Shown piece after piece: positions 1-10,201 of a stretch of DNA of 10,201 nt. Position 1 is the stretch's first letter. Every line of letters begins with the position of its first letter. Source of the stretch: an uncultured Mediterranea sp. (GTDB lineage Bacteria; Bacteroidota; Bacteroidia; Bacteroidales; Bacteroidaceae); contig CAMGAL010000048.1 in the NCBI GenBank assembly GCA_946007445.1, forward strand, positions 1 through 10,201. Direction: 5' to 3'. The notes below the pieces were generated by a model. It ran no database searches. It had not been told where the DNA came from and worked only from the letters and a program-made list of their open reading frames with translations. Position numbers and translations under genes: made by a program.

Positions 1-1439
1 TCCTCTACGATGATGTTCTCGAACACCTTGCGCTTGGAGCCCTGCACACGGATGAAGCCGCGAATCATGCGCTGGAACGTGCAACGACGCACCTCGAAGG
101 AGCTGAACGTCACAGCCATACCATTGGAGTACATGTTGGCAAAGTAGTTGCCCGTAGCCTTGCCGTCGCCATAGTTGGTGGCCAGCGGACAGTCGAAGTC
201 GATGTCTTCGAAGATGACGGACTTCACGTTGATGGGTGCATCGGCCTCGCCCGACTGAGGCTGGCGTCCGAACATGAAGTTGCAAGAGAAAGCAGAGCCG
301 TCGGGATTCTTCGACATACCGTTCAGATAGATCTTCGCATTGCCCTTGCCAGCCTGCAGGTCAGCGGGACGGGTGCGGAAGGTGACGCCCTTGCAGAGCA
401 CGGGGTTGGTAGCAAAGTAGTAGGCCTTGCCACCCTCCAACTCGTAGATGGTGCCCTCTACCAGGGAGTTGTCGGCCGTGTAGTCAATGAGAATCTTGTC
501 GAGACACATGGCCTGGTAGTCCACTGCACCGGGGATGGTGTCGCTCGGGTTCACTTCATGTTTCAGTAAGATGGGGTCGCCCGGAATACCGTCGGTACGC
601 ACCGTGCAGGTGTTGTAGATAGCATCTACGTGGATGGGGATGTTGTGATTCTCCGCATTGACCACATAGACGGTGTTCATGTCGAGCCCGTCGATGTCCA
701 CATAGCCACGCTGCTTGTCGGCATCGGTCAGGGTGTACTTCTTCCACTTGTCGGGTACCTTGCCTTCGGGATTGGTAGGGGAAACCGCCACCGAGATGGA
801 GTGTACCACGAAGTTGCCGTCTTCGCCCCCCTCGAAGTGCTCCTTGTAGTCGCCCGGATCGCCCGAAGTGGCATAATTCATGTCGAGGTTCAGACGGAAG
901 GAGGTCTTGGTGATGTCGCCGATGACCACCACGTCGGGGGTGTTGTAGCGGATGTCGGTGTCGAGTCCGAACCAGTCGGCCCAGTGACGTCCGTCGCCAT
1001 AGCCGTACCACTTGGAGTGGTACTCTTCGCCCTTGGTAGAGAGGGTGCGGATGGCGAAGCGGTAGCTGGTGCTGTACTCCAGGTCGCGGAAGGTGAGTTC
1101 CAGCACATCGGGACCCACAATGGTGTCCTTCAGGATGGCGCCGGGAGTCTCCCAGGCCTCGGCCCCGTTGGCCACATTGGCCTGCAGAGCCATCCGAATC
1201 TGATAGCCGGCACAGCCCTTCACGCCGTACCAGTAGAGGTGGATGTCGTTCAGTTCCTCCACGGCACAGGCATAGGGTTCGTCATCGCCCTTGCCCGTGT
1301 TGTGGTCCTTGCGGAACATGGTCATGAACTCGCGCTCGGGCACGGTGCCATCTTCGTTGGTCTCCACGTCATCGTCTTTGCAGGCGTAGAAGCTACCGGC
1401 GAGGAGAGCCATCATTATATATAAGAAATGCTTTTTCAT
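1..1439 (-). CDS. Surface lipoprotein with Fn3-like repeats and a DUF4957/DUF5123-type beta-helix (partial, C-terminus outside window)
   Basis: The frame is open from an ATG at 1439 to the left edge, giving 479 residues with no stop. Residues 1-19 form a short lipoprotein-type signal (MKKHFLYIMMALLAGSFYAC); the lipobox FYAC is imperfect, but Cys20 is followed by KDDD, which resembles the acidic surface-export signal of Bacteroidetes lipoproteins. Two beta-rich Fn3-like modules follow, at about 65-135 (ending YSTSYRFAIRTLS) and 165-285 (ending MNTVYVVNAEN...TVRTDG). From about 310 the pattern becomes that of a right-handed parallel beta-helix: VEGTIYELEGGKAYYF, then short strands such as VKSVIFEDIDFDC and FSSFEVRRCTFQRMIRGF. 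This matches my memory of DUF4957/DUF5123 proteins found beside SusC/SusD pairs. The gene starts 18 bases after the SusD stop, the place usually held by SusE/SusF-type glycan-binding lipoproteins, so cell-surface glycan binding is likely; a polysaccharide-lyase activity is possible but no catalytic residues can be judged. The gene's existence is certain; the family name is moderately sure. Confidence 0.85.
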   Translation of the reverse strand, partial: MKKHFLYIMMALLAGSFYACKDDDVETNEDGTVPEREFMTMFRKDHNTGKGDDEPYACAVEELNDIHLYWYGVKGCAGYQIRMALQANVANGAEAWETPGAILKDTIVGPDVLELTFRDLEYSTSYRFAIRTLSTKGEEYHSKWYGYGDGRHWADWFGLDTDIRYNTPDVVVIGDITKTSFRLNLDMNYATSGDPGDYKEHFEGGEDGNFVVHSISVAVSPTNPEGKVPDKWKKYTLTDADKQRGYVDIDGLDMNTVYVVNAENHNIPIHVDAIYNTCTVRTDGIPGDPILLKHEVNPSDTIPGAVDYQAMCLDKILIDYTADNSLVEGTIYELEGGKAYYFATNPVLCKGVTFRTRPADLQAGKGNAKIYLNGMSKNPDGSAFSCNFMFGRQPQSGEADAPINVKSVIFEDIDFDCPLATNYGDGKATGNYFANMYSNGMAVTFSSFEVRRCTFQRMIRGFIRVQGSKRKVFENIIVE

Positions 1440-1457
1440 AATCGCATGATATAGGGG

Positions 1458-3458
1458 TTAATAACCATAATAGTTCTTGTAAACACCGGCACTACGCTGG
1501 ATGGCATTGTTGGGGAAAGGCAGGATGTAGCGCACGGGAGGCAGGTTGTCGACATTGGGAGTCTCTGCCGCACCGTCGCGGATGACCTTGATGTCGCCGT
1601 TGTCGTAGCCACGGATGAAGCCGAAGAAGGAGTAGAGCATACGGTCTTCGGGATAGCCGGTCTCGCCATTGAACCATCCGTAGAGGTCGGCCTTTTCCCA
1701 ACCGGTCTCGCCCACCATGTTGGGGTCGTCCTTCTTGTCGTAGAGACAGTTCTTGTAGAACTCCAGCACGTTCATGCCGAGGTTGGGGTAGATGCTGGTA
1801 TTGCCCGGATTGGCCACGCCGGTCTTGGAATCCTTGTAATAGACCGAATAGGGAATCTGCTCCCAATCCAATCCATCGTGCTGCCTAATCTGCTCCATGT
1901 CCATCGAGGACTCGCCGTTCATGGCCACGCCGTAGTAGCGCATGAAGCTCCAATAGACCTCCTCGCTGTAGAGGTTGTTGCGCACGAGGTCGCGCCAACG
2001 CATGTTCTCGCCGGCAAACTCGAACTTGCGCTCGTCGAGCACCGCCTTGAGGAAGCTCTCCTTGGAGCCGCTGACCGACTGGAGGTACTCCTCCACCTTG
2101 CCCGCATCGGCAAAGGCACGACTACGCACCTGACGCAGGGCATCGATGGCCTTGGCACCGTGGGCACCGCCTACACCATTCTCCACCTCATTGACAGCCT
2201 CAGCATACATCAGCAGCACGTCGGCATAGCGCATCAGGGGGTAGTTGATGCCGGTGTTGCCCTGACTGTTGGTGCCGAGAGTGGTGGTAGCCCAGAGCTT
2301 GGACCACTTGTTGTTGTGCACGGTGCGGTCGTTGCGGAGCTTGGGTACACCCTCGTAGGTGTAGTACCACAGGCCGTTGACGTAGTCGCGACGCAGGTCG
2401 TCTTCATCGAAGAAGTAGCGGTAGAGGGCGCTCAAACGAGCGTTGCCCTTACATTCACCCCAGATGTTGGTACCCATGGTGTTGCCCTCATAGAGGTCGC
2501 TGGAGGGGCCGTGGATGTAGCCGATATTGCCCGTGGAGTTCTTGCCGAAGGGAATCTCGAAGATGGGGTCGTCGTTGTTGACCACCACGTAGTTGCACTC
2601 GTTGATGAAGACCTGACGATAAGGCAGGTTGAGCGCGTGCTTGCCGCAGCTGATGACCGAATCGGCATACTGCAGAGCGGTCTCGTAGAAAGCCTTGTAG
2701 TTGGCCGGACGCTGCATGGAGCCGTAGCTCTTGGGGTTACCCGTGTCGGGACGGAGCGAGTAGCCGCCTGCCGTCAGTGCCAGACGGGAGATCATGGCCC
2801 AGCAGAACTCCTTGCTGACACGCTCTACGCCATCACCCAGGTCGGAAGCAAACTTCATGGTGGGAGCAGCCTGCTTGAGGTCATCAATCAGTGTCTGCTG
2901 CACCTTCTCGCGGTCGGTGACGGGCAGCAGCATGGCTTCGTTGCTCTCAGCGCCTGCTACGGGAGAGAGAGCAAAGGGTACATCGCCAAACATCACGACC
3001 AGGTCGTGGTAGAAGACGGCACGCAGCACCTTGGCCTCGCCCATCATCTGGTTCAGCTCTTCGTCACCGGCCTTGTAGAGGTCGCTCTGCTCCAGCTGGT
3101 AGATGAAGTTGTTGGCATACTCCACGCCCTTGTAAGCCGCATTCCAGGCCTTCTCGATTTCACCACCCAGCGGGGTGCAGTCGAAGCGGCGGTAGCTGTT
3201 GTTGGTAGCCACGTCGTTGGTATAGACAGCCATATCGACATCGCTGTTGTAGCAGAAGGTACTCAGGTAGGCACCTCCGTAGGTGTCGCCGCTCAGCAGC
3301 TGGGCATAGACACCGTTCAGAGCGCGGTTGATTTCGGTCTTGTCGTTGAACACATAGTCGTTCTCGTACTTGGAGGGAGCATCCACATCGAGGAAATCGC
3401 TGCACGATGTGAGTCCCGCCAGCAGCAGACCGCTGTATAATAGATTCTTGATTTTCAT
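1458..3458 (-). CDS. SusD/RagB-family nutrient-binding outer-membrane lipoprotein
   Basis: The 666-residue product is a SusD-type lipoprotein that should cap the SusC barrel at the cell surface and bind the target glycan. The signal peptide ends in a canonical lipobox, LTSC, with the lipidated Cys at residue 19 followed by SDFLD, as in most SusD proteins. Family hallmarks include TEINRALNGVYAQL near the N-terminus, YPLMRYADVLLMYAEA at 406-421, FEFAGENMRWRDLVR at 479-493 (the usual 'GxRWxDL' block) and RYILPFP near the C-terminus. It is longer than classical SusD (about 550 residues), with extra sequence at roughly 530-640. I chose the ATG at 3458; a TTG four codons upstream (3470) is in frame but would only add MQKT before the basic signal-peptide start. 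The gene begins 24 bases after the stop of the SusC-like gene and is co-transcribed with it by all appearances. The binding specificity cannot be read from sequence. Confidence 0.96.
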   Translation of the reverse strand: MKIKNLLYSGLLLAGLTSCSDFLDVDAPSKYENDYVFNDKTEINRALNGVYAQLLSGDTYGGAYLSTFCYNSDVDMAVYTNDVATNNSYRRFDCTPLGGEIEKAWNAAYKGVEYANNFIYQLEQSDLYKAGDEELNQMMGEAKVLRAVFYHDLVVMFGDVPFALSPVAGAESNEAMLLPVTDREKVQQTLIDDLKQAAPTMKFASDLGDGVERVSKEFCWAMISRLALTAGGYSLRPDTGNPKSYGSMQRPANYKAFYETALQYADSVISCGKHALNLPYRQVFINECNYVVVNNDDPIFEIPFGKNSTGNIGYIHGPSSDLYEGNTMGTNIWGECKGNARLSALYRYFFDEDDLRRDYVNGLWYYTYEGVPKLRNDRTVHNNKWSKLWATTTLGTNSQGNTGINYPLMRYADVLLMYAEAVNEVENGVGGAHGAKAIDALRQVRSRAFADAGKVEEYLQSVSGSKESFLKAVLDERKFEFAGENMRWRDLVRNNLYSEEVYWSFMRYYGVAMNGESSMDMEQIRQHDGLDWEQIPYSVYYKDSKTGVANPGNTSIYPNLGMNVLEFYKNCLYDKKDDPNMVGETGWEKADLYGWFNGETGYPEDRMLYSFFGFIRGYDNGDIKVIRDGAAETPNVDNLPPVRYILPFPNNAIQRSAGVYKNYYGY

Positions 3459-3482: not shown

Positions 3483-6400
3483 TTAGAAAGTGATGTTCGT
3501 ACCGAAGACGAAGCTGCGGCTGCGCGGATAGCGGTTGTAGTCCATGCCGCAGGTCAGGCCGGTCTGCACGTCCACCTCGGGGTCATAGCCGGAGTAACCG
3601 GTAATGATGAAGAGGTTGGAAGCGCTGGCATAGAGACGCAGCTTGCTCAGTCCCCACTTCTTGGTGAGCTTCGAGGGGAAGGTGTAGCCCACTGTGACAT
3701 CCTGACAGCGCAGGAAGGAGCCGTCCTCGATGAAGTAGGAATGCGTCACCTTGTTCACCACGTCGGTGGGGTTCCAGAGGGTCACACCCTCGTTGGCAGC
3801 GCGATAGACGTCCACGGTGTTGTCAATCCAGTAGTTCTTGTAGTAGTTGTCGCCATCGGCCGGGTTGAAGTAGTGCCAGCTGTCGCGGAACTTGGAGAGC
3901 ACGTTGTAGAACTTGTTCTTGTTGCCCTCGGACGAAGAGAGCTGGTAGGCCGTAGCGTTGTTCACATCGAAGTCAATCATGTAGTTGAAGTTGATGGTGA
4001 AGTCCAAATCCTTGTAGGAGCCGCTGAATCCGAAACCGCCCTGATACTTGGGGTTGGTGTTGCCGATGACGGTACGGTCGCGTTCGTCAATCACGCCGTC
4101 GTCGTTCAGGTCCTTGAACTTGATCTTGCCCGGCAGGGTGGCGCTACCCGAGTTGCTGTCGTTGTAGACCATGTTCTGCACAGTGCCCTCCTTGGGGATG
4201 GCCAGGAAGTTCTGGTTGGGGTCGAAGTCGAACTCGTCCATGGAGTAGAGGCCGTCGTAGACGAAGCCGTAGATGAGGCCTACCTGGTCGCCCACGCGGA
4301 GGCAGTAGTCGTTGTAGCTGGACTTCCAGCGGTCGTTCTGGTCCCAGATGACATCATCCGTGCCGTTCAGCTTGTCCACCACCATCTTGTTGAAGCCGAA
4401 GGTGAGGTTACCGCTCAGGACGTAGTCCTTGCCGCGCAGGATGTCGCCGTTGATGGAGAGTTCGAAGCCCTTGTTGGTCACCTGACCCACGTTGCGCATC
4501 TGCTTGGTGTAGCCCGACACGGTGGGCACGTCGCTCCAGTAGAGCAGGTCCTTGGTGGTGTTCCAGTAGAACTCGGGAGTGATGGTGAGTCGGTCGTTGA
4601 AGAAGCCCAGGTCGAGGGCTACGTTGCGAGTCAGAGTCGTTTCCCACTTGATTTTTGTGTTGGGATAGGTCTTGCCATCGCCCATGCCGTACCACTGCTC
4701 GCCGTTCTCGGTAGACTCGCCGAAAGCGGGGCCGCTGGTGGAGTTGACCTGATAGAGGTAGCGCCACAGGTCGTCGTCGATGCGGTTGTTACCGGCCATA
4801 CCGATGGCGGCACGCAGCTTGAGGTTGCTGATGAGGGGGTTGTCCTCCAGGAAGCCCTCCTTGGTCAGCACCCAAGCGCCCGACACCGAGGGGAAGTAGC
4901 CCCACTGCTCGCCGGGAGCGAACTTGGTACTGCCGTCGGCACGCATCGTGACGCTCAGCAGGTACTTGTGGTCGTAGTTATAGTTGGCCTGTCCAAAGAA
5001 GGAGGCCGTACGCTCGGGGCTGGAGAGGGATGTGGTGGCCTCCCAGGGTTTGCCGAGGTTCATGTTGTTCAGGGCCTTGTTGGCCGAGATGTTGCGGGGG
5101 AAATAGCGGTTCTTCATGTAGTTCTCCTTCACCTGACGGCTCTGCACCTCCTGACCCAGCAGGAACGAGAAGTTGTGCAGGTGGTCGATGTCGAAGTTGT
5201 AGGCAGCCGTATTGGTCCACATGAACTTCTCCGTGCGCTTGTTCTTGATGTAGGCCACAGGGAGCTTGTTCTGCGCCTGGCCCTCACTGGTCATGGCGCC
5301 GTAGAAGCGGTTCTCGTCGTAGAAGGAGATGAAGTGTACGCCCTCGGTGCGGAGCGTCAGTCCCTTGATAGGCTTCCACTCCAGGGCCAGCTGGTTGGTG
5401 TAGCCGTAGGAGTGCTTCTTCAAGGTGTTCTCCTGGATGTCGTTCTTCGGGTTGGTGTACTCGAAGATGGCCTCATCGTCGGGGTCAACCGTAGCAGGAT
5501 CCCAGAAAGCGAACTCGCGCAGACCGTTGGTGGGACGATAGCGCAGCACGTCGATGATACCGCCCGTGCCCACCTTATCGCCACCGGCACCGGTGTCGCG
5601 ACGGTAGGAGACCTTGGGGTTGTACTGCAGCGAGAGGTTCTTGGAGAGCTGGGCGTTGAGCTTCACGTTGAGGTTGGTGCGACGCACGCCACTGCCCATG
5701 ATGATACCCTTGTCTTCGCTCTGCGTCAGCGAGATGTTGAAGCGGAACTTCTCCGTACCGCCACCCACCGAGACGTTGGTCTGGTAGTTGAGCGGATTCT
5801 CGCCCATCACCTCGTCCTGCCAGTCGTGCGTGGTGGCACGGCGGTAGATGTCCAGGTCCATGGGGTTGCCGAAGTTGGCACGGAAGTACTTGGCCTCCGT
5901 ACTGCGGTTGTTGCCCGTGGCCGTTGCCCAGTCGTACTGATAGTCCACGAAGTCGTAGGCGTTCATCAGGTCGAGCTTGCGGGAGAGGTGACTGGTGGAG
6001 AGCTGTGCGTTGAGGTTGACCGTCACCTTGCCCTCCTTGGCGCTCTTGGTGGTGACCACCACTACGCCGTTACCACCCTTGGCACCATAGATAGCGGTGA
6101 GGGAGGCATCCTTCAGCACGTCGATGCTCTGGATGTCCGAGGGGGGAATGTCGTTGATGTTGTCCGTCTGGAAGCCATCGACGATGTAGAGCGGGTCGTT
6201 GCTCTGCGTCACCGACGTACCTCCACGTACACGGATGTTGATGTCGGCACCCGGAGCACCATCGACCGTAGTGACCTGCACACCGGCAATCTTACCCTGC
6301 AGAGCCACAGCAGCCGAAGTGACGGGCACAGCAGCCAGCTTGGCACCCGACACGGAGCCGACCGAACCGGTCAGGTCCTTGCGGGCCTTGCTGCCACCGT

Positions 6401-6746
6401 AGCCGATGACCACGACCTCCTCCAGCGCCTGGGAGTCGTCTTTCAATGTAATCTTCAATTCTTTTCCGGCCTGGGGCATCACCTCCTGCGTCTCCATACC
6501 GACATACGAAATGACCAGTGCCTTGCCTTTGGGCAACGACAGCGAGAAGTTACCATCAATGTCGGTAATCGTGCCGTTGGAGGCATTGCCTTTCTCCACT
6601 ACAGAGGCACCTATCACGGTCTCGCCCGTGGCATCGAGCACGGTACCCTTCACTGTAATGTTTTGAGCAAACAGACCGATTGGCACCATCAAGAACAATG
6701 AGAGCCAAAGCAGCAATCTGCCCTTTCTACTTAATTCAAGCTTCAT
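3483..6746 (-). CDS. SusC/RagA-family TonB-linked outer-membrane transporter
   Basis: The 1087-residue product is the TonB-dependent barrel that imports glycan fragments delivered by its SusD partner. Residues 1-27 are a signal peptide ending GLFA before Gln28. A carboxypeptidase-regulatory-like beta-sandwich follows (about 29-100: ITVKGTVLDATGETVIGASV, DIDGNFSL, ISYVGMETQEV). Next come the region holding the TonB-box-like LEEVVVIGYG (109-117) and the plug domain (about 121-236, with VALQGKIAGVQV, IRVRGG, DPLYIVDG, IDVLKDASLTAIYGAKGGNGVVVVTT). The rest is beta-barrel ending in an aromatic residue (FGTNITF), as expected for BAM-assembled porins. There is no N-terminal STN domain, which argues against control through an ECF sigma/anti-sigma pair. 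The frame extends 19 codons further upstream to a GTG at 6803, but the ATG at 6746 directly precedes the signal peptide (MKLELSRKGRLLLWLSL) and is preferred. The SusD gene follows after 24 bases. Confidence 0.97.
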   Translation of the reverse strand: MKLELSRKGRLLLWLSLFLMVPIGLFAQNITVKGTVLDATGETVIGASVVEKGNASNGTITDIDGNFSLSLPKGKALVISYVGMETQEVMPQAGKELKITLKDDSQALEEVVVIGYGGSKARKDLTGSVGSVSGAKLAAVPVTSAAVALQGKIAGVQVTTVDGAPGADINIRVRGGTSVTQSNDPLYIVDGFQTDNINDIPPSDIQSIDVLKDASLTAIYGAKGGNGVVVVTTKSAKEGKVTVNLNAQLSTSHLSRKLDLMNAYDFVDYQYDWATATGNNRSTEAKYFRANFGNPMDLDIYRRATTHDWQDEVMGENPLNYQTNVSVGGGTEKFRFNISLTQSEDKGIIMGSGVRRTNLNVKLNAQLSKNLSLQYNPKVSYRRDTGAGGDKVGTGGIIDVLRYRPTNGLREFAFWDPATVDPDDEAIFEYTNPKNDIQENTLKKHSYGYTNQLALEWKPIKGLTLRTEGVHFISFYDENRFYGAMTSEGQAQNKLPVAYIKNKRTEKFMWTNTAAYNFDIDHLHNFSFLLGQEVQSRQVKENYMKNRYFPRNISANKALNNMNLGKPWEATTSLSSPERTASFFGQANYNYDHKYLLSVTMRADGSTKFAPGEQWGYFPSVSGAWVLTKEGFLEDNPLISNLKLRAAIGMAGNNRIDDDLWRYLYQVNSTSGPAFGESTENGEQWYGMGDGKTYPNTKIKWETTLTRNVALDLGFFNDRLTITPEFYWNTTKDLLYWSDVPTVSGYTKQMRNVGQVTNKGFELSINGDILRGKDYVLSGNLTFGFNKMVVDKLNGTDDVIWDQNDRWKSSYNDYCLRVGDQVGLIYGFVYDGLYSMDEFDFDPNQNFLAIPKEGTVQNMVYNDSNSGSATLPGKIKFKDLNDDGVIDERDRTVIGNTNPKYQGGFGFSGSYKDLDFTINFNYMIDFDVNNATAYQLSSSEGNKNKFYNVLSKFRDSWHYFNPADGDNYYKNYWIDNTVDVYRAANEGVTLWNPTDVVNKVTHSYFIEDGSFLRCQDVTVGYTFPSKLTKKWGLSKLRLYASASNLFIITGYSGYDPEVDVQTGLTCGMDYNRYPRSRSFVFGTNITF

Positions 6747-6841: not shown

Positions 6842-6866
6842 GGTGCAAATATCGAGACTCTGCACC
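6842..6866. promoter_or_regulatory. Dyad GGTGCA-N13-TGCACC enclosing the susC-like -7 box
   Basis: Perfect 6-base inverted arms lie at 6842-6847 and 6861-6866 with 13 bases between them. The predicted -7 element of the SusC-like gene overlaps one arm and the spacer, so a dimeric protein bound here could block the promoter. The GH95 promoter has no equivalent dyad. A chance origin is quite possible. Confidence 0.3.
6846..6853 (-). promoter_or_regulatory. Predicted -7 promoter element of the SusC/SusD operon
   Basis: The minus strand reads GATATTTG, a one-base departure from the Bacteroidetes -7 consensus TAnnTTTG, followed by C. Transcription would begin a few bases downstream, near 6838-6841, giving a leader of about 90 bases before the ATG at 6746. 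No TTG is seen at the -33 position, which suggests dependence on an activator. The spacing to the upstream 19-base element (31 bases) is identical to that at the GH95 promoter, and this supports the assignment. Confidence 0.6.
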
Positions 6867-6884
6867 ACATGGATGGGGATAATT

Positions 6885-6903
6885 TATCGCAAAAGGTGGA
6901 AAA
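6885..6903 (-). promoter_or_regulatory. Candidate operator, copy 1 (upstream of the SusC-like gene)
   Basis: Read on the minus strand this is TTTTCCACCTTTTGCGATA, which matches copy 2 at 9478-9496 at 18 of 19 positions. It contains two TTTT(C/G)C half-sites nine bases apart, so it looks like a direct-repeat site. It ends exactly 31 bases before the predicted -7 box of the SusC-like gene and begins 6 bases after the GH95 stop codon. Same orientation and same distance at two promoters of one PUL make an activator-binding site the best reading. The binding protein is unknown. Confidence 0.65.
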
Positions 6904-6909
6904 AATCTA

Positions 6910-9408
6910 TTAAAACACCTCTTTAACCACCTCTACACACTCTCCAGCCTCCGTATGGAGGTCGTAGAGATAGACCGGACGCAAATCCACACCCCGCAAG
7001 GGAGCCCGCTCACTGACCAGCGGACGGGCCACCTGCTGCAGCTCATAGCCGGGGTGGGTGTTGGCACTCTCCTCTGCCGCCCGGGTCAAAGGCCGGCCAT
7101 CGGCCCTGCGCAACGGCACGTAGGAGCGCAGACGCAACTGTCCGCCCAAGGTGGAACGGATGGTGGCTTGTTGCAATTCCTGACCACTCCAGGACAACCG
7201 CTCCACCACAAAGCCACCCCGGGCCCGCAGTCCGCTGACACGACCCTCGCGCCACTCGGAGGGAAGAGCCGGAAGGAGGTGGAGCGCTCCGTCGTGACTC
7301 TGCAGCAGCATCTCGGCCATGCCGGCCGTGCAACCGAAGTTGCCGTCAATCTGGAACGGGGGATGAGCGTCGAAGAGGTTGGGATAGGTTCCCCCACCCT
7401 GCCCCCGCTGCACCTCGGGACTGACATAGTTGAGCTGATTCTTGATGAGCCGATAGGCGTGGTCGCCATCGAGCATACGCGCCCAGAAGCAGACCTTCCA
7501 CCCCATGGACCAGCCCGTAGAGGGGTCGCCCCGCTGCAGCAGCGTGTTGCGAGCCCCTTCGAAGAGGATGGGTGTGCGGTAGGGAGAGATCTGACGGCCG
7601 GGATAGAGCCCCCAGAGGTGGGAGATGTGACGGTGATGGTCGTCGGGAGCATCCCAGTCCTCCCACCACTCCTGCAGCTGACCGTATTGCCCCACCTGCA
7701 TGGGCGGCAGGCGACGACGCATCTGCCGCAGGGTGTCGGCCAAGGTCTCGTCGCACTGCAGCCGCTCCATGGCCCGCAAGGTATTGCTGAAGAGGTCGAA
7801 CACCAGCTGGTTGTCCATCGTGATGCCTGCAAAGAGATTGGCCTTCTTCCGAATCCAGCGGGGAGCATTCTCCGGTGAATTGGAGGGAGTGACCACCAGG
7901 TAGCCTGTGCGGGGGTCTTCCACCAGAAAATCGACGAAGAAGGTGGAAGCCTCACGCAGGACGGGATAGATGCGCTGCAGGAAGGCCTCGTCGCCACTAT
8001 AGAGGTATCGGTCCCACAGGTGTTGACAGAGCCAAGCGTTGGCCGTGGGCCAAATGCCACAGTAGGCCCTATCGACCGCTCCCGTCATGCGCCAGAGGTC
8101 GCTGTTGTGGTGGAGCACCCAGCCACGACAGCCATACATCTCGCGGGCCGCCTCGCGCCCGTTGTCGGCCAGTTCCTCCACCATGCGGACGAAGGGTTCG
8201 TGCAGCTCGGCCAGGTTGGTCACCTCGGCCGGCCAGTAGTTCATCTCCGCATTGATGTTGGTGGTATAGTTGCATCCCCAAGCGGGGTTGATGTGACGGT
8301 TCCACTTGCCCTGCAGGTTGGCAGGCTGGCAGCCGGGTTGCGAGGAGGAGATGAGCAGGTAGCGGCCGAACTGGAAGTAGAGCGAGAGCAGATGAGGGTC
8401 GAAGGTGGTGGGTGCCTCCTTGATGCGGACATCCATCGGTTTCTGCACTTGCCTGTTCTCTCCCAGCTCCAGCTGCACCCGGTCGAACTGACTCCGATAG
8501 GCGGCCACATGGTCAGCCAGCTGACGACGGTAGTCGCGTGAGGCGTTCCGCAAGGCCTGCGCATTGCGGGCATAGGGGTCGGCAGAGATATCCTTGTAGT
8601 TCACAAAGTTGGTAGCCATCGCGATGTAGAGGGTCAGCTCAGTAGCCTGCTCCACGCGCAGCAGGGTATCAGCCGCCACGAGCCTGCCTCCCCGATGCTT
8701 CACCTGCAGGTCGGCACAGTAGTGCACCAGGCCGGGGAAGTGGTCGGTGCCCGAGGGCTGCCCCTCCAAGCGGAGCCGCTGACGGTCGGTGACGGACACC
8801 CGGGGGGAAGGCATGGGGGTGGTGTAGTAGAGGTCGCAGTTGATGGACCTGGGACGCGAAGCCCGCAGATTGACCACCACCAGTCCGTCGGTGAACGAGG
8901 CAAACGCCTCCTGCGTATAGTCCACTCCGTCCACCGTATAGGTCGTGGTGCTGACCGCCCGCTCGATGTCCAGCTCGCGCCGGTAGGCGGTGGGAGTGCG
9001 CCGACCGTTGTGACGGATATGCAAGCTGCCCACGGTCTGGTAGGGCATCTCATTGCCCACCTGCGACAGCAACTTCTTGCCCCCCAACTGCTGTGCCTCT
9101 TCGGTGCGTCCTTCGCAGATGAGGCGGCGGATCTCGGCCAGTGCCTCCCGTCCCTGCGGGTTGTAGTTCTGGTAGGGTGAACCAGCCGATACGGTCTCCT
9201 CGTTGAGCTGCAGTTCCTCGTTCTGCGGATTGCCATAGACCATCGCAGCCAGTCGGCCGTTGCCGATGGGCAGCGCCTCCTCCCAAGCCTGGGCCGGACG
9301 GTCGTACCAGATAATATAAGGTGAATGGGACGTTTGTGCTTGCAGCAGGGTCGCTGCACTCAGGCAGAGCATCGTACTGAGGAGCTGATGTAGGAACGTG
9401 TATTTCAT
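6910..9408 (-). CDS. Glycoside hydrolase family 95 enzyme (alpha-L-fucosidase or alpha-L-galactosidase)
   Basis: The 832-residue product begins with a type I signal peptide (cleavage likely after LLQA, residue 24; no lipobox), so it is exported, probably to the periplasm. The GH95 hallmark [20 protein letters not shown] lies at 34-53. The (alpha/alpha)6 catalytic part carries [15 protein letters not shown] (382-396), TPSNSPEN (507-514), [14 protein letters not shown] (591-604), [16 protein letters not shown] (631-646) and [13 protein letters not shown] (680-692). By analogy with Bifidobacterium bifidum AfcA (Asn421, Asn423, Glu566, Asp766) I assign the catalytic set as N384, N386, E513 (general acid) and D688; all are present. 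The residue two before the first Asn is Thr382, where classical fucosidases have His, a change I associate with L-galactose specificity. Family members act by inversion on terminal alpha-L-Fuc/L-Gal. The gene is upstream of and co-oriented with the SusC-like gene, 163 bases away, with its own promoter. Family is near certain; substrate is open. Confidence 0.96.
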
Positions 9409-9438: not shown

Positions 9439-9446
9439 CAAATCTA
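9439..9446 (-). promoter_or_regulatory. Predicted -7 promoter element of the GH95 gene
   Basis: The minus strand reads TAGATTTG, a perfect match to the Bacteroidetes consensus TAnnTTTG, followed by C. The start point should fall near 9432-9435, leaving a leader of about 25 bases before the ATG at 9408; that leader has no Shine-Dalgarno but is A-rich just before the start (TTTGAAAATATG), as is usual in this phylum. No -33 TTG lies at the expected distance, in line with activator dependence. Confidence 0.7.
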
Positions 9447-9477
9447 GAGAGAAGCACACTGAGCAGGGAAGAAAATC

Positions 9478-9496
9478 TATCGGAAAAGGTGGAAAA
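9478..9496 (-). promoter_or_regulatory. Candidate operator, copy 2 (GH95 / TPR-gene divergent region)
   Basis: Read on the minus strand this is TTTTCCACCTTTTCCGATA, with two identical TTTTCC half-sites nine bases apart. It ends 31 bases before the -7 box of the GH95 gene, exactly as copy 1 (6885-6903) does before the SusC-like gene. On the other side it ends 26 bases before the -7 box of the divergent TPR gene and one base before a TTG at 9498-9500. A protein bound here could therefore activate GH95 and also affect the plus-strand gene. Confidence 0.65.
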
Positions 9497-9522
9497 GTTG
9501 TGGAACTGCCGAAAAAACCTGC

Positions 9523-9530
9523 TATATTTG
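9523..9530 (+). promoter_or_regulatory. Predicted -7 promoter element of the TPR gene
   Basis: TATATTTG matches the Bacteroidetes -7 consensus TAnnTTTG perfectly and is followed by C. A TTG at 9498-9500 could serve as the -33 element, although the 22-base gap is slightly long. Initiation a few bases downstream would leave a very short leader of about 15 bases that holds AAAGGA (9538-9543), a purine-rich ribosome-binding site 8 bases before the ATG at 9552. Confidence 0.65.
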
Positions 9531-9551: not shown

Positions 9552-10201
9552 ATGAAAAGCAACCGATACTTGCATCGAATCAGCACCTGCCTGCTCACGC
9601 TCTGCCTCCTCCTCGCAGGAGCCGTGAGTAGCCTGCCCGTCCGTGCGGAGAAGGTCAGTCTCGAGCTCTCCATTTACCGGGAGGTGGACGAGCCTACCCT
9701 GAATCGCTACCGGAAGCTGCTCACCAGCGTCTATGACCCACAGCAGAAGGCGGCCATCGACTCCTTCATGACCGATGCCTTGCACCAGCAGAACTGGTGC
9801 GTCAAATACCTGGCCTACCGACTCAAGGTACTCCACTACAATATGGAGAACCGGATCGACGAGGCTGTAGCCACCGCTCGGGCCGGTGCCAAGCTGGCTG
9901 ACGAACATCATGCGGAAGAGGCCTACTATGAAATGATTACCAAGATAGTCTCCTCCTATGCCTTCGAGAGCCGATACTATGCCGCCCTGCAGGAGGCACA
10001 AGGCATGGCCGACAAAGCGGCCAAAGAGCAGTCCATCTATGGAGCCATCATGGCCAACTACTGTCTAGGCATGATTTTCTCCTACCGGACGGAGTTGCAC
10101 CAGGCCATCAGCTACTTCGAGCAGAGCCTGGAGAACATGGAACAGTACGAGATGACTCCCTATCTCTATAGCACCTACCTCTTTCTGGCCCAGTGTCATC
10201 G
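9552..10201 (+). CDS. Secreted TPR-repeat protein, possible N-terminus of a PUL sensor/regulator (partial, C-terminus outside window)
   Basis: The frame is open from the ATG at 9552 to the right edge, giving 216 residues. An AAAGGA site and a strong -7 box place the start. Residues 1-32 look like a type I signal peptide (basic start, hydrophobic CLLTLCLLLAGAV, cleavage likely after VRA before Glu33), so the visible part should be extracytoplasmic. The rest is all-helical with TPR-like helix pairs, for example around 103-118 (DEAVATARAGAKLADE), 143-158 and, most clearly, 169-196 (NYCLGMIFSY, then HQAISYFEQSLENM). I do not recognise a specific family. In Bacteroidales, periplasmic TPR arrays of this kind are often followed by a membrane segment and then a histidine kinase or an HTH domain. 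Its divergent position beside a PUL, next to a candidate operator, fits a regulator. The output domain is not in the window, so a plain periplasmic TPR protein is equally allowed. Confidence 0.8.
   Translation, partial: MKSNRYLHRISTCLLTLCLLLAGAVSSLPVRAEKVSLELSIYREVDEPTLNRYRKLLTSVYDPQQKAAIDSFMTDALHQQNWCVKYLAYRLKVLHYNMENRIDEAVATARAGAKLADEHHAEEAYYEMITKIVSSYAFESRYYAALQEAQGMADKAAKEQSIYGAIMANYCLGMIFSYRTELHQAISYFEQSLENMEQYEMTPYLYSTYLFLAQCH

Follow-up and report, generated by a model that had tools for sequence, protein, structure and literature searches.

The minus strand of the window (the whole 10,201-nt stretch analysed here, which makes up the entire contig C48 of its assembly) carries two copies of a 33-bp direct repeat, one ahead of a susC-susD import operon and one ahead of a GH95 glycoside hydrolase gene. 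On sequence comparison, we consider it very likely that the two elements are predicted operators of a pectin-sensing hybrid two-component system (HTCS) of the BT4111/BT4124 type, which would co-induce the import operon and GH95. The bacterium has probably put its GH95 trimming enzyme under the same pectin sensor as the import operon. The core proposal of the first-pass annotation, an activator site coupling glycan import (susC operon) to trimming (GH95), is thus retained as a prediction: phylogenetic footprinting supports it, as does the spacing to the -7 box, which relatives keep to the exact base.

Anatomy of the two predicted operators

The genes and promoter elements of the window were assigned as follows.

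Positions 6910 to 9408, minus strand: GH95 glycoside hydrolase, 832 aa (Pfam PF22124, E 1.8e-178; best solved relative 4ufc, named GH95).
Positions 3483 to 6746, minus strand: SusC-like transporter, 1087 aa (TIGR04056, 867.9 bits).
Positions 1458 to 3455, minus strand: SusD-like protein (PF07980, PF14322).
Positions 3 to 1439, minus strand: third operon gene, first 479 codons, cut by the contig end, in the position of the FnIII-like gene of pectin PULs.
Positions 9552 to 10199, plus strand: divergent TPR-type protein, N-terminal part, cut by the contig end (weak relatives, 21-30% identity).
Positions 9464 to 9496, minus strand: predicted 33-bp operator of GH95, with site 1 TTTTCCACCTTT, a 9-bp spacer and a degenerate site 2 TTTTCTTCCCTG; 34.0 bits.
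Positions 6871 to 6903, minus strand: predicted 33-bp operator of the susC operon, TTTTCCACCTTT-TGCGATAAA-TTATCCCCATCC; 40.6 bits.
Positions 9439 to 9446, minus strand: -7 box of GH95, TAGATTTG, about 30 nt before the ATG, its TTTG 25 nt after the 24-mer core.
Positions 6846 to 6853, minus strand: -7 box of the susC operon, GATATTTG, about 100 nt before the ATG, its TTTG 25 nt after the 24-mer core.
Positions 9523 to 9530, plus strand: probable -7 box of the TPR gene, TATATTTG, judged from its sequence.

GH95 enzymes remove side-chain fucose or L-galactose. The SusC protein has orthologues up to 86% identical within the genus. Residues 1-480 of the third operon gene are 82% identical to the product of positions 14553-16754 of locus L147, and its residues 486-733 match contig C260. 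The C-terminal third of this gene lies at the end of that contig (L246, G000:C260, 2960-3703). No HTCS or lyase was recognised among the ORFs of the 3.7-kb C260, and no lyase or esterase was found on the window contig.

The first-pass annotation had described a 19-base element at 9478-9496 and 6885-6903 on the minus strand, and the two copies, identical at 18 of 19 bases, were recovered with the positions, the orientation and the 31 bases between the end of each copy and an 8-mer ending in TTTG that it had given. Of its two TAnnTTTG-like boxes, the one of GH95 (9439-9446) stands, and the one of susC (6846-6853) ends in TTTG and fits TAnnTTTG imperfectly. Comparison of the GH95 and susC intergenic regions gave a top same-strand 19-mer match of 18, compared with 16 as the top of 2000 shuffled pairs; among real upstream-region pairs from the fetched loci, from which near relatives were only roughly excluded, at least 18 of 19 bases agreed in 7 of 5934. 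No further match to the 19-base element at up to 3 mismatches occurred in the window, and 200 shuffles of the window gave 0.

The conserved unit extends beyond 19 bases. It is a direct repeat with a period of 21 that spans 33 bp, TTTTCCACCTWT-N9-TTTTCCCCCTTT, and the -7 box comes after it at a constant distance. The 33-bp block TTTTCCACCTWTTSCGATAAATTTTCCCCCTTT is common to 20 chosen promoters, and its self-match in these was 0.66 at period 21 (the best of periods 6-23) versus 0.31 at period 9, which shows that the two TTTTSC half-sites nine bases apart suggested earlier are not the repeat unit. Both window copies have the geometry of two 12-bp sites with a 9-bp spacer, and in both site 2 is degenerate, agreeing with site 1 at 6 of 9 core positions. 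In all but two of the 20 promoters (L239 and L156), an 8-mer matching KAnnTTTG lies 17 bp downstream of the end of the block, and the spacer is partly conserved (GATAA) in these promoters. A TTG starting 17-30 nt upstream of the box was present in only 2 of the 20 aligned promoters and absent from both window promoters, in agreement with the earlier remark that neither has a clear -33 TTG. The score matrix was trained on 18 promoters, all outside the window. The two operators were its top window positions, the next scoring 0.0, and its top score on 39 kb from six other contig stretches of the same assembly was 4.6.

Conservation at susC loci and association with pectin genes

We fetched 19 orthologous susC loci, and with the extended pattern the element was found ahead of susC in 12 of them (L147 to L157 and L162), TTTG being in register at all 12. 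At some of these loci a lyase-like, pectinesterase or small lipoprotein gene lies between the element and susC, and the spacing suggests that the intervening genes and susC form one operon. The small lipoprotein-like gene, which has no Pfam match (L147, 8488-9192), sits between operator and susC in several genomes. Locus L146 ends about 159 nt upstream of susC; its genome, G458, has two copies, one of which precedes a lyase-like gene, whereas the other sits at the very end of contig C24 and faces outwards. No clear element was seen at L158, L160, L161, L163 or L164 (SusC identity about 60-73%), where L160 covers only about 0.4 kb upstream and L163 has a weak copy of 13.6 bits; L159 is cut inside susC. 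Among four further susC relatives (58-70% identity), the one in B. reticulotermitis is preceded by a diverged copy in register (24.8 bits), and L270, L271 and L273 reached matrix scores of only 6.1, 1.9 and 6.8. In B. faecis no close SusC orthologue was found (best 42%).

Upstream of GH95, no element was found at 80 other loci, the best matrix score in 500 nt being 10.2 bits (L009); one of these loci extends just 27 nt upstream, and at four more the available stretch was shorter than 500 nt. The conserved context is susC, not GH95.

Across the genus, 158 genomes were scanned with the pattern CACCTWTTNCGATAAWWWTYCCYC, up to 2 mismatches being allowed; 24 of them had matches, 31 in all, compared with 4 for the reversed control. 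TTTG followed exactly 25 nt after the 24-mer at 19 of the 31, the window's two included (18 of 30 fetched, plus the 31st, in L251). Ten of these 19 are at the loci from which the pattern was drawn or their siblings, two are the window's own, and seven lie at other loci (two in G403, two in G458 and one each in G047, G057 and G474). The gene next to the 18 in-register sites was susC or susC-like in 7, a small lipoprotein gene ahead of susC in 4, lyase-like in 3, and a pectinesterase, a pectic acid lyase and GH95 in one case each, with a contig end at the remaining one; for L234 it was taken from the coordinates of the susC-orthologue search. Besides susC, the genes found behind the operator thus include pectin genes: pectic acid lyase (PF09492), pectinesterase (PF01095) and lyase-like genes matching PDB 9buj, 'Pectate lyase'. 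At L251 5571 (G474), an in-register operator precedes a gene starting MKKRFIFLAILLVQ, and the corresponding site in G057 precedes pectic acid lyase. Of the 12 matches out of register, all but L225 fell within open frames of 120 aa or longer, and L225 is intergenic with TTTA instead of TTTG; an antisense open frame of at least 120 aa overlaps 3 of the 18 in-register sites (L216, L229 and L243).

In the family, 399 genomes were scanned with the 24-mer, and 24 of them gave 28 matches (7 with the reversed control). Twelve loci were newly fetched: L258, at a lyase-like gene, had TTTG at 25 and L256 at 27, and the other ten had no TTTG at either distance; with TTTG in place at so few new loci, the element is thin outside the genus. 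The 19-mer itself at up to 1 mismatch was found in 13 of 301 family genomes (the own genome and 12 others, one match each; 7 reversed-control matches), and all 12 foreign matches lay inside open frames of at least 80 aa. The exact 19-mer is a poor search string, the result of which, taken alone, would have resembled a refutation. In six named genomes, up to 3 mismatches yielded 6 matches in 4 genomes compared with 11 for the reversed control. Only the match in Bacteroides cellulosilyticus DSM 14838 was promoter-located with TTTG in register, and it is probably G042's own rather than an additional case, since the coordinates are equal.

Candidate regulators and rival explanations

Nine of the 19 susC loci had HTCS genes next to them; at L149, L152 and L156, where the element is present, no HTCS was seen in the stretch. 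The own genome has 21 HTH_18 matches. Among its regulators, the HTCS on contig C130 (1459 aa) matches the PUL HTCSs from end to end at 46-49% identity; for seven others the figure is 37% or less and covers only part of the length. It has the full domain set (propeller, HisKA, HATPase, REC and AraC), its second helix-turn-helix is by eye near-identical to those of the PUL HTCSs, and the adjoining hydrolase is 60% identical to the HTCS-neighbour hydrolase in G042. Because the other own regulators sit on long branches in the HTCS tree, the C130 protein is placed mainly by its pairwise identities. Additionally, the last 0.36 kb of contig C194 (L203, G000:C194, minus strand) encodes a 118-aa fragment, cut by the contig end, that is the C-terminal part of a second HTCS. 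In the DNA-binding domain (about 110 residues) the fragment is 45-58% identical to the PUL HTCSs and the C130 protein 48-56%, and this roughly equal closeness weakens the claim of C130 as the regulator. Both are unjoined to the PUL in the own assembly. The genome may hold an HTCS pair like BT4111 and BT4124 of B. thetaiotaomicron, and the putative regulator is most likely the C130 HTCS, the HTCS of the C194 fragment, or both.

The first-pass annotation had looked to a regulator at the locus itself, where the candidate is the divergent TPR protein at 9552. That this protein, or a partner, binds the operator is improbable. Its gene adjoins the GH95 operator, two of its weak relatives (L088 and L090) are TPR-AraC-like, with an AraC-like C-terminus by eye, and its own C-terminus is absent from the assembly. 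However, the better matches (L125, L087 and L101) are TPR-kinase-like by eye, and a domain scan of the L101 protein gave TPR matches and a HisKA match below cut-off with no DNA-binding domain. Moreover, of 157 other genus genomes only 3 have a relative at E 1e-7 or better (21-30% identity), although the element is retained at 12 susC loci. The HTCS identities thus make an HTCS on another contig the probable binder, and the adjacent TPR protein not a likely one. Two TPR proteins with a HisKA-like region are encoded elsewhere in the own genome (L166, 5068-7194; L167, 80-2038); the L166 protein, when scanned, had a HisKA match below cut-off and no ATPase domain, and is possibly an inactive kinase or an adaptor.

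The fixed distance to the -7 box would also suit a core-promoter motif read by an alternative sigma factor instead of an activator site. We regard this as more doubtful still, since the element spans 33 bp, stops 17 bp short of an ordinary -7 box, is rare and is tied to pectin-type genes.

Despite the 18 of 19 bases shared by the copies, a recent duplication or mobile repeat with no regulatory role is hardly credible: the flanking sequences are dissimilar, as the first-pass annotation had pointed out, sequence and spacing recur across species, which already contradicts this reading, and the assembly holds just two copies, both at promoters. This count comes from the own assembly of 2.43 Mb (73% complete), in which the window copies were the only 19-mer matches at up to 2 mismatches and a single match at 3 mismatches lay within open frames. 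BLAST of the intergenic region against plasmids gave no match.

Relation to known pectin systems and proposed mechanism

The predicted HTCS operators resemble HTCS_Rgu-1, the predicted BT4111/BT4124 regulon of Bacteroides thetaiotaomicron, whose motif places two directly repeated 12-bp sites on either side of a 9-bp spacer (Ravcheev et al. 2013, PMC3878776). There, too, a 12+9+12 repeat stands ahead of operons of a pectin PUL with susC/susD, lyase and esterase genes and the HTCS is of AraC type, the comparison being one of geometry, not of letters (PMC3878776). The same authors proposed dimers two helix turns apart and called HTCS spacers non-conserved (PMC3878776), whereas here part of the spacer (GATAA) is conserved, the -7 box follows at a fixed distance, the predicted members include GH95 and the HTCS is unjoined to the PUL in the assembly. 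BT4108-23 is induced by homogalacturonan (Martens et al. 2011, PMC3243724), and growth on this substrate fell to 11.6% of wild type on disruption of BT4111 and was unaffected by disruption of BT4124 (PMC3243724). Similarly, susC, susD and FnIII genes share one strand in the homogalacturonan (pectin) PUL 49 of Bacteroides xylanisolvens, which also contains PL1, CE8 and a single HTCS (PMC4769552). It differs in that no operator-sharing GH95 operon is described in the part of that report consulted (PMC4769552); the window contig yielded no lyase or esterase. The canonical sigma-ABfr promoter has TAnnTTTG at -7 and TTTG near -33 (Ryan et al. 2020, PMC7366714); the window promoters share the -7 box, but the -33 element is absent and the predicted operator is in its place. 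A literature search for TTTCCACCT with Bacteroides returned nothing related, judged by title.

Given the published work on HTCS_Rgu-1, homogalacturonan PULs and promoters, this kind of operator was already known, and the two elements are a new member of it. New are GH95 as a predicted regulon member, with no upstream copy at the 80 other GH95 loci, and the base-exact -7 distance with the partly conserved spacer, which are absent from the portions of the published accounts examined.

In the proposed mechanism, periplasmic pectin oligosaccharides would switch the HTCS on, and its AraC-type domains would occupy the 33-bp repeat as a pair of subunits, both on the same face of the DNA and separated by two helical turns. 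The bound HTCS would then stand in for the missing -33 contact and recruit the primary sigma factor. This replacement is suggested by the position of the downstream site, which stops 17 bp short of the -7 box, roughly at the place of a -33 element. The susC-susD-FnIII import operon and GH95 would thereby be induced together. The sequences themselves show the repeat with its conservation and exact spacing, its link to pectin genes, and the presence in the genome of HTCS genes belonging to the right clade. We infer the binding, the inducer, the dimer geometry and which HTCS acts; activation rather than repression is suggested by HTCS biology and the missing -33 element. With less assurance, we lean slightly towards a wider reading, in which HTCS activators of pectin PULs would be obligate -33 substitutes at one base-exact -7 distance across species, and GH95 would have been newly captured into the homogalacturonan regulon, coupling import of backbone fragments to removal of side-chain sugars.

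The operator definition (33-bp repeat plus fixed -7 distance) predicts members of the pectin regulon from sequence, even where the sensor is unlinked. By this prediction that regulon includes a GH95 gene, and the way in which an HTCS activates promoters with no -33 element can be tested directly. A TTG at 9498-9500 sits a little past the GH95 operator, and the TPR gene seems to have a promoter of its own at 9498-9530; with this promoter starting so close by, a regulator bound at the operator could also affect the TPR gene.
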